Shown here piece after piece: positions 59,023-61,482 of a DNA stretch of 64,000 bases. The DNA is from Pelagibacteraceae bacterium AG-430-E20. GTDB lineage: Bacteria > Pseudomonadota > Alphaproteobacteria > Pelagibacterales > Pelagibacteraceae. Every line of letters starts with the position of its first letter. Position 1 is the stretch's first letter. Under the pieces are notes generated by a model, which saw nothing but the letters and a program-made list of their open reading frames with translations, was not told where the DNA came from and made no database searches. The translations under genes and the position numbers were made by a program. The stretch lies in assembly GCA_003209915.1 (NCBI GenBank), contig QCOF01000001.1, forward strand, positions 1 to 64,000, in the 5' to 3' direction.

Positions 59023-60198
59023 TTATATTAAATGTTTGAGAGCTTGCTTTATATCTGCGATAAGGTCGCTAGGATCTTCTAATCCAATATGTAATCTCAC
59101 AAGATGTTCATCTTTTGCTAATTTTAAAAATTTTCGAGTTCCGGTTTCTCTATACTCTTGATGTAAAGCTAAACTTTCAAATCCACCCCAACTATAACCA
59201 TAACCAAATAATTTTAATGAATTAACAAATTTTCTAACAGAGTTAATATTTTTACATTTTATTTTTAAACCCATTAAACCTGAAGCTCCTGAATAATATT
59301 TCTTCCACATTTTAAAATTGTAAGAACCTTTTTTATAAGGATAAAGCAGTTTTATATTTTTAAATTTTGAGAGAAATTTTGCTACTTTCTTTGCATTTTC
59401 TCTGTGTCTATCTAGTCTGACATCTAAGGTTCTTAAACCTCTAGTAATCAAATAAGCATCATCAGGACCAAGTCTTAAACCAGTAATCTTCTCTGCAGCC
59501 TTGACTTTGGGAAATACTTTTTTATTTACTGCTAAAGATCCTCCCATAACATCAGAATGACCAGAATAATATTTAGTTGCAGAAACAATTGCCATATCAA
59601 ATCCAAGTTTTATTGGTTTTAAAAAGTATGGTGTTCCCCAAGTGTTATCCATAGCAGTTAAAATTTTATTTTTTTTGGCAATAGAAATTATTTTTCCTAG
59701 ATCTTGAAAATCAAATGAATTACTTCCTGGATTTTCTACGAAAATTAACTTTGTTTTTTTGGTAATATTTTTTTCTAAAGTTTTAAGATCATGAGGATTA
59801 TAAAAACTTGTTTTAATATTGAAATCTTTTAAATAATTTTCAGTCAATATTCTTGTTGGACTATAAACTGGATCTGCTGCAATAATTTCATCTCCAGGTC
59901 TAGTGACGCTAAAAATTGCCAAAAAAACTGCCCCGAAACCTGTTGGTGTTGTAAAAACATGATAACTTTCCTCAAGCTTAGTTAAAATTTTTTGTAAAAT
60001 ATAAGTAGTTGATGTGCCTTGCCTTGCATAATCATAATGACCACCAATTGGATTTTTTTGAGCTTTAGCCTGAGTTTTTCTTATATCTTTCATTGATTTA
60101 AAAATTATCGTGGACGCTCTAACTACCGGAGGGTTTACTGACTGATTATGAAAATCTTTAGCTGTATGCTTAAGAAAAGTCTTAAAAGAGCTACTCAT
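59023..60198 (-). CDS. metC: Cystathionine beta-lyase (Cys/Met metabolism PLP enzyme)
   Basis: 391 aa. The PLP lysine is in SATKYYSGHSDVMGG near residue 208, and NTWGTPYFLKPIKLGFD precedes it. The N terminus RASTIIFKSM and the closing GFESLALHQEY fit the trans-sulfuration family. The cystathionine beta-lyase branch is most likely, producing homocysteine; cystathionine gamma-synthase or methionine gamma-lyase are less likely alternatives. Its start faces a divergent 27-aa frame. Confidence 0.85.
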   Translation of the reverse strand: MSSSFKTFLKHTAKDFHNQSVNPPVVRASTIIFKSMKDIRKTQAKAQKNPIGGHYDYARQGTSTTYILQKILTKLEESYHVFTTPTGFGAVFLAIFSVTRPGDEIIAADPVYSPTRILTENYLKDFNIKTSFYNPHDLKTLEKNITKKTKLIFVENPGSNSFDFQDLGKIISIAKKNKILTAMDNTWGTPYFLKPIKLGFDMAIVSATKYYSGHSDVMGGSLAVNKKVFPKVKAAEKITGLRLGPDDAYLITRGLRTLDVRLDRHRENAKKVAKFLSKFKNIKLLYPYKKGSYNFKMWKKYYSGASGLMGLKIKCKNINSVRKFVNSLKLFGYGYSWGGFESLALHQEYRETGTRKFLKLAKDEHLVRLHIGLEDPSDLIADIKQALKHLI

Positions 60199-60271
60199 AA
60201 TAAAATTTGATATGTTTAAAAGACAATGCTATATCCCATGAAAAACGTCAATATAATTAAAATAGGATTGA

Positions 60272-60355
60272 ATGAGTTACCCAAAAAAACACAGAGGTCG
60301 AAGAAAACAAGGCTCAAAAAAAAGAAGAGCTAAAAGAAAAAATAAGAAGAAGTAA
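60272..60355 (+). CDS. 27-aa extremely basic peptide
   Basis: ATG-started frame, 27 residues of which more than half are K or R (MSYPKKHRGRRKQGSKKRRA...). AGGA stands upstream of the start. It lies in the 165-base gap between divergent metC and convergent mnmA. The composition resembles very small ribosomal or nucleic-acid-binding proteins, but no family is recognised and its reality rests on composition and ribosome binding site only. Confidence 0.45.
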   Translation: MSYPKKHRGRRKQGSKKRRAKRKNKKK

Positions 60356-60363
60356 ATCAGCTT

Positions 60364-61482
60364 CTATTCTTTAATCCACCCACCACCAAGAACTTTATAG
60401 CCAAACTGATCTTTGTTATAAAAAACACAAGCTTGTCCAGGTGAAATACCATCCTCTGGCAAAGTTAGATTAACAACACCTGTTTTATTATCTTTTAAAT
60501 TTATATTAGCTTCCAGTAAATCTCCTGTAGATCTTACTTTTACAAAAATTTTTTTTTCTAAATCTTTATTAGGGGCTAGTAAATTTATATTTTTTAATGA
60601 AATTGTTTGTTTTCCGAGTTTTTCTTTTGGACCTACAATGATTTCATTTTTATCAGAATTAATTTTAAGTACATAAAGAGGCTCTTTATCTGAAACCTTT
60701 ATCCCTTTTCGCTGACCTATTGTAAAATTAATTATACCATCATGAACACCTACAACTTCTCCATTTAAGTTTTTAATATTTCCTTTTTGAAATGAGTCAG
60801 GTCTAAATTTTTGTATAACTGATGCGTAATCTCCATTTGGAACAAAACAAATATCTTGGCTGTCTGGTTTATCAGCAACATTTAAATCTAAATTCTTTGC
60901 TATCTCTCTAGTTTTATCTTTCAACATTCCACCCAAGGGAAATCTTAAATAATCTAATTGCTCTCTAGTTGTATTGAATAAAAAATAGCTTTGATCTCTT
61001 TTCTCATCTATTGCTCTGTACATGTTTGTTGTATTTTTTTCTGTAATACTTTTTACATAGTGACCTGTTACTAAAGCATCAGCATTAAGATCTTTTGATA
61101 CCTCAAATAAATCTTTAAATTTTACAGTTTGATTACATTGCACACAAGGAATAGGAGTTTCACCTTTTAAATAACTTTCAACAAAATTATCTATTACCCC
61201 TTGTTTAAATTTGTCCTGATAATACAAAATTTTATGTTCAATATCTAATTTATTAGCCACTCGTTTTGCATCCATAATATCTTGGCCAGAGCAGCATTGT
61301 TTTGAGGCTGCTACTTCTTTACCATCATCGTATAACTTTAAGGTGATACCTATAACGTTATAACCTTCTTTCTTCATCATGCCTGCAACAGTAGAAGAGT
61401 CTACACCTCCAGACATAGCTACAACCACAGTAGTATCTGATGGTTTTTTATTAAAACCTAAAGAGTTTAATTCTTCGTTCAT
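60364..61482 (-). CDS. mnmA: tRNA-specific 2-thiouridylase
   Basis: Thiolates U34 of Lys, Glu and Gln tRNAs. 372 aa. The ATP-binding PP-loop SGGVDS is at residues 24-29. The catalytic cysteines are in PCVQCN (near 112) and DICFVP (near 208). The C-terminal domain ends with PGQACVFYN. It is transcribed away from the DUF3553 gene. Confidence 0.96.

Follow-up and report, generated by a model that had tools for sequence, protein, structure and literature searches.

A conserved 27-residue basic peptide of SAR11 bacteria with homologues on phage contigs, a candidate accessory ribosomal protein

The locus studied here raises the question whether a frame of only 27 codons, squeezed between two larger genes of a SAR11 genome, is a gene at all, and if it is, which partner so basic a product could serve. 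The frame was found in a 64-kb stretch of Pelagibacteraceae DNA (64,000 nucleotides, hereafter the window), where an earlier note, made from the letters alone, had pointed to it as a possible ribosomal or nucleoid-associated mini-protein.

The frame is situated on the plus strand at 60272..60355, encodes the peptide MSYPKKHRGRRKQGSKKRRAKRKNKKK and ends with TAA. Its start is pinned by an in-frame TGA (60269..60271, plus strand) directly 5' of the ATG, which sets the length of the open frame at 27 residues. Ten Lys and six Arg account for 16 of these (59% K/R), thus the position, the length and the more than half basic composition had been read correctly before. No other ATG frame of 20-60 amino acids in the window has at least 50% K+R, and dinucleotide-preserving shuffling of the window (n=60) produced on average 0.017 such frames.

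The ribosome binding site claimed in the earlier note was found as a Shine-Dalgarno-like AGGA at 60264..60267 (plus strand), 4 nt 5' of the ATG; AGG or GGA is kept at this position in most, not all, of the in-genus leaders displayed. Alignment of 97 distinct in-genus upstream regions revealed a probable -35 element TTGATA (60207..60212, plus strand; six columns, each at least 95% identical) and, 17 nt after it, a probable extended -10 element TGC-TATATC (60227..60235, plus strand; columns likewise at least 95% identical). Between this promoter-like site and AGG(A) there is a conserved 5'-leader block, GTCAATATAATTA in the window (60247..60259, plus strand) with the in-genus consensus GTCAATAAAATTA; it is more strictly kept than AGG(A) and could be a regulatory site. 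A simple consensus promoter scan gave no plus-strand promoter and did not report the TTGATA/TATATC pair, since it demands T at position 6 of the -10 element and hence skips TATATC; the promoter at 60207-60235 is therefore assigned by conservation. It is probable from these sequence patterns that the gene is driven by its own extended -10 promoter.

The gene lies inside a 165-bp gap between two minus-strand genes, both named by eye: a divergent one for a PLP-dependent cystathionine beta-lyase-like enzyme (59023..60198) and a convergent one for an MnmA-like tRNA thiouridylase (60364..61482), which ends 8 nt past the peptide stop. The same PLP-enzyme neighbour was seen in L004, L011, L163 and L018, and different ones in L162, L165 and L166. 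We also observed, directly 3' of the peptide in several Pelagibacteraceae loci (L004, L011, L163, L166, L018), a co-directional, membrane-protein-like gene of about 210-250 amino acids, which separates the peptide from mnmA in L011, L163, L166 and L018. An Rfam search over 59900-60700 returned a sole, sub-threshold match (YrlB, E 0.17), situated on mnmA and not on the peptide gene. The idea of a riboswitch or leader of the divergent PLP-enzyme gene was discarded, having no Rfam match and facing a frame which is itself under coding selection.

This selection is evident from the variation among relatives. The 109 copies compared (108 of the first 110 loci and the window, a set in which some genomes may be counted twice) comprise 66 distinct DNA sequences and 6 distinct peptides. 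For a set of 98 distinct coding sequences from bacteria the true frame has a pN/pS of 0.150 and the two shifted sense frames have 2.8 and 1.3; the three opposite-strand frames have 1.4, 0.30 and 1.4, and the value of 0.30 is taken as low because the third positions of that frame overlap those of the 27-residue gene. It is mainly the third codon positions that vary (minor-allele frequency 0.22 vs 0.06). The peptide is more conserved than the neighbouring enzyme MnmA: between the window and genomes G306 and G436 it is 81% and 74% identical, MnmA 53% and 55%. All bacterial copies read have the constant length of 27 residues, and 14 of the 27 columns (M1, Y3-H7, G9-K12, G14, S15, R18, R19) are identical across 15 representative bacterial and phage sequences, the family core being M-x-YPKKH-[RK]-GRRK-x-GS-x-x-RR. 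Selection acts on the peptide, and 60272-60355 is a genuine protein-coding gene. By direct reading the longest full tryptic piece of the product has 5 residues, therefore it is probably invisible to tryptic proteomics.

How regularly the gene occurs in the SAR11 order was followed in several ways. A search of relatives detected the peptide in 32 of 61 genomes, namely in 32 of the 37 of the same genus (own genome included) and in 0 of the 24 of f2, the other sampled family of the order. When 247 genomes of the order were searched with a profile, 180 matches were obtained, which by our own count are 177 of the 194 Pelagibacteraceae (f1) and three weak ones in f2, the 47 unlisted negatives being taken as outside f1 because they come after the listed f1 negatives in the table. 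Conservation across SAR11, the check proposed in the earlier note, is thus seen in these 177 genomes, one of which (G116) has its copy cut by the contig end after 14 residues. The three f2 matches (E 0.06-0.09) were all dropped; two of them gave E about 0.2 in another search, and the two which were read (L172, L173) proved to be one 39-residue frame without a start at the motif. No small basic frames were found near mnmA in three f2 genomes.

The absences in f1 are likely assembly gaps, since mnmA too went unmatched in 15 of the 16 peptide-negative f1 genomes tested, and in the remaining one (G156) a contig end cuts mnmA on the flank expected to carry the peptide. The control for this is thin, G116 being the sole peptide-bearing f1 genome in that test (mnmA found), and the mnmA match was also absent in the peptide-bearing G299 (f25, 71% complete) and the peptide-free G045 (f2). 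Three SAR11 genomes rated 97-99% complete (G069, G071, G101) matched neither mnmA nor the peptide, which could mean an assembly gap or a true loss. In a named collection (records titled Pelagibacteraceae/Pelagibacterales or Candidatus Pelagibacter ubique) 79 of the 80 mnmA loci kept, out of 348, carry the peptide, the copy of L038 without its first two residues; at L073, the sole exception, the contig ends 22 nt beyond the mnmA match. A frame broken in relatives, which would have spoken against the gene, was not encountered: it is intact in 108 of the first 110 loci, L038 and L073 being contig-end cuts. Nearly every peptide-bearing genome has one match.

The family reaches beyond SAR11 and into phages, which had been missed in the earlier note. 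Class-wide sampling yielded full-length 27-residue copies in three other alphaproteobacterial families (f32, f142 and f25). The first two belong to one second order, in which the peptide was found in 120 of 150 and 126 of 162 genomes (overlapping samples) and in 20 of 20 genomes with a completeness of at least 90%; the 36 genomes of the 162 that lack it are less complete than those 20. In f25 four genomes have it. In a sample of the phylum 2 of 398 genomes matched, both from f1, and all bacterial genome sampling was within Pseudomonadota. Matches at E <= 0.01 were obtained in 16 of 385 genomes, 13 of them full length; the permissive class-level search (E <= 10) gave matches in 87 of 190 genomes, full length in only 6. 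Partial matches in G356, G357 and G593, located inside longer frames, one with a stop, were dropped as chance. The lack of the peptide in f2, while a different order has it, may reflect loss, transfer or a misplaced phylogeny.

Outside f1 the gene neighbours, named by eye, differ: in f25 an rpoH-like gene precedes the peptide, in f32 an MFS-like gene adjoins it and in f142 it has a LysR-like and an SbmA-like gene on its two sides, as expected of an independent housekeeping gene. At f32 loci (L141, L157, L158 and some of L209-L238) a -10-like TATTAT or TATAGT has its end some 8 nt 5' of the ATG and no Shine-Dalgarno site was seen at those examined, which suggests a leaderless mRNA and leaderless translation of the peptide gene in f32, as opposed to the leader in SAR11. 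In the Pseudomonadota sampled the gene is clade-restricted and, within its clade, core, conserved and single-copy, as an accessory ribosomal protein should be.

Scanning IMG/VR twice yielded 27 rows, which come from 19 distinct viral contigs with versions of 31-40 amino acids that have the same core (M.YPKKH[RK]GRRK.GS..RR). Eleven contigs were grouped as type A (loci L187-L193, L198-L204; genes read on L187, L190 and L199, the others assigned by the same upstream sequence) and six as type B (loci L183, L185, L186, L195, L197, L205-L207; genes read on L183, L186, L205 and L207, the others assigned by upstream sequence), while L182 and L184 represent further phage contexts. The contigs carry phage hallmark genes: terminase, portal and major head protein on the type A representative L199, integrase on the type B contigs L205 and L207. 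In the three type A contigs read the peptide ATG overlaps the stop of the 154-residue gene preceding it, and a short way downstream comes a GroES-like gene; the peptide gene is positioned after the portal gene and before the major head protein gene. A holin gene was noted upstream of the type A peptide, and a hypothetical protein from Flavobacterium phage immuto matches the 154-residue protein at 33% identity over 62%. In type B the peptide is within an exonuclease/HNH gene region, and on L205 and L207 an integrase gene lies further downstream. Among the named relatives of the type B exonuclease, the one listed first (33% identity) comes from Pelagibacter phage Baldr; the peptide motif was absent from the 10 kb of Baldr that were read. 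A tblastn search of named phages with the consensus 27-mer gave no match, and the low-complexity filter may have masked this query. The first 25 residues of L195 (type B) are equal to those of the bacterial G436 with only 59 of 75 bases shared, therefore the protein was held while the DNA diverged.

The peptide falls outside the family models searched. For the window peptide no match was obtained in Pfam or NCBIfam (E up to 10) or in PHROGs (E up to 1); five further bacterial members had none in Pfam or NCBIfam, so that Pfam gave no family for the 6 distinct bacterial members, NCBIfam nothing for 15 of 15 bacterial and phage members, and PHROGs nothing for four phage versions. The PDB, searched by sequence and by profile, gave nothing up to E 10. 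Control sequences of the Thx, bS22 and bL37 type did match their own family models, Thx strongly; the curated cut-offs of Thx (PF17070/TIGR04560), bS22/COX24_C (PF08213/NF047430) and bL37 (NF047428) were reached by none of the peptides. The core motif was not found in open-access PMC full text, and among the matches listed (titles and abstract starts) the open-access PMC literature on SAR11 small proteins, phage ribosomal proteins and tiny ribosomal proteins did not describe the peptide. The lack of family matches, the SAR11 distribution and the pN/pS of 0.150 give good support to the suggestion of a mini-protein that is undescribed and conserved throughout SAR11.

The likeness to the tiniest ribosomal proteins, also suggested earlier, holds for composition; for sequence it does not exceed the shuffle level, alignments of the peptide to Thx, bS22 and bL37 scoring no better than those to shuffled versions. 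Thx/bTHX of the 30S subunit resembles it in having 27 codons (Thermus-type), an M-G start, abundant K/R and a KKK end, and 9 of 27 positions are identical without gaps to the G061 peptide, but for four family peptides 22-97% of Thx shuffles score as high. bS22/COX24_C (analogues eL41 and mS38) is likewise tiny with about 60% K/R; it is described as a bent helix, whereas residues 1-14 of the peptide hold Pro and Gly and are predicted to be irregular. bL37, a 24-residue actinobacterial 50S protein, is alike in size, charge and clade restriction, but consists of a helix followed by a loop, while for the peptide a loop followed by a helix is predicted. Judged by sequence the peptide belongs to none of the three families Thx, bS22 and bL37, although it may still work like them. 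The Thx site is in the 30S head, and that of bS22 is the 16S h27/h44/h45 pocket. Thx and bS22 models at E <= 0.1 matched none of 28 genomes (10 with the peptide, 18 without), therefore the peptide does not simply replace or alternate with either.

The protein bL37 was discovered from cryo-EM density (PMC5876184), and bS22 is poorly annotated and nearly invariant within a clade, that of Borrelia (61% K/R) having been unannotated and not identified by MS, with its authors expecting bS22 in further bacteria (PMC10618245). Phage-encoded bS21, bL12 and others offer a parallel as small bacterial genes also found on phages; in the passages available bS21 and bL12 of phages can enter E. coli ribosomes, and the same passages make no mention of the 27-residue peptide (PMC6375957).

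The explanation we favour is that the single-copy gene encodes a 27-residue basic, lineage-specific accessory ribosomal protein, which we regard as reasonably probable, with ribosomal RNA as the most likely binding partner. The residue-level invariance from bacteria to phages argues for a specific, deeply conserved partner, and rRNA fits this. An AlphaFold2 model of the 36-residue phage version, built with 12 relatives, left residues 1-14 without regular structure and predicted a helix at 15-34 (mean pLDDT 84.4, pTM 0.41). From promoter use and expression to rRNA binding in a pocket and the role in phages, we infer the following course. Transcription would begin at an extended -10 promoter belonging to the gene itself and translation at the AGGA-preceded ATG; an extended N-terminal hook (YPKKHRGRRK) and a Ser-capped basic C-terminal helix (from G14-S15) might then enter a structured rRNA pocket, where the inserted peptide would neutralise phosphate charge, as do Thx, bS22/eL41 and bL37. 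The tail-extended copy of some phages would presumably join the host ribosomes in the way that phage bS21 and bL12 can. A peptide of an rRNA pocket would explain the charge, the invariance of Tyr, Pro, His and Gly, the constant length, the core status, the promoter-like site and the presence in phages. There is also evidence against the ribosomal reading: no homology to known ribosomal proteins was detectable in the families, PDB and alignments searched, no ribosomal protein gene was recognised beside the peptide in 13 loci with ORFs read, f2 lives without the peptide (0 of 24), neither Thx nor bS22 is simply replaced by it in the 28 genomes, and the precedent E. coli ribosomes with viral bS21 were inactive (PMC6375957). 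The type A copies, set between the portal gene and those of the capsid, would fit a role in condensing DNA inside the phage head as well.

This last point belongs to the main rival, a protamine-like DNA-condensing or nucleoid-associated micro-protein, a non-specific polycation which would compact the nucleoid and in phages aid head packing. It draws on the 59% K/R and on the type A gene order, with the peptide between the 154-residue gene and GroES, after portal and before the major head protein. Polycations need charge, however, not sequence, and Y3, P4, H7, G9, G14 and S15 are invariant in the 15 representatives; since this conservation spans orders and phages, it speaks against a non-specific polycation, and the type B copies are in an exonuclease/HNH/integrase region instead of a head module. 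We consider this rival unlikely. Slightly less credit still is given to an RNA chaperone or a non-ribosomal RNA-binding cofactor (for instance in tRNA modification or the degradosome) or a translation regulator: an arginine-rich peptide with Gly, Pro and His could suit a specific RNA site, and the tRNA-modifying gene mnmA is near in 79 of 80 Pelagibacteraceae mnmA loci, but in L011, L163, L166 and L018 the membrane-protein-like gene intervenes. A function tied to mnmA itself was thought unlikely because the loci read from outside the family do not preserve the mnmA context.

Two further readings have very little weight. That the frame is spurious, kept open by A-rich sequence or an overlapping RNA element, could appeal to its A-richness and shortness, the promoter scan and the single antisense pN/pS of 0.30, yet it is already refuted by the in-frame pN/pS of 0.15 with changes concentrated at third codon positions, by the conservation of the peptide in phages with different flanks and by Rfam, whose only nearby match is sub-threshold (E 0.17) and off the gene; we hold it to be extremely improbable. 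A secreted antimicrobial or toxic peptide is more improbable still, for although the product is highly basic, and free bS22 and bL37 inhibit the growth of some bacteria in vitro (PMC10085706), it is a polar peptide with few hydrophobic residues and no secretion signal apparent by eye, encoded by a core gene of small genomes.

A wider and more tentative proposal, to which we give somewhat less than even weight, is that the peptide would be a ribosomal protein in SAR11 and at least two other alphaproteobacterial lineages, repeatedly captured and lengthened by phages for host ribosomes during infection, and that it could serve as a discrete character for SAR11 kinship or for phage-mediated transfer. 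Few groups of bacteria on Earth rival SAR11 in abundance, and a core protein that hardly varies and lies outside all the model libraries searched would be a component still lacking from the inventory of a much-studied streamlined cell. Were it ribosomal, it would be a new ribosomal protein in Alphaproteobacteria and a specific target in any SAR11 ribosome structure, and it would offer a way into the question how marine phages may change translation in their hosts.
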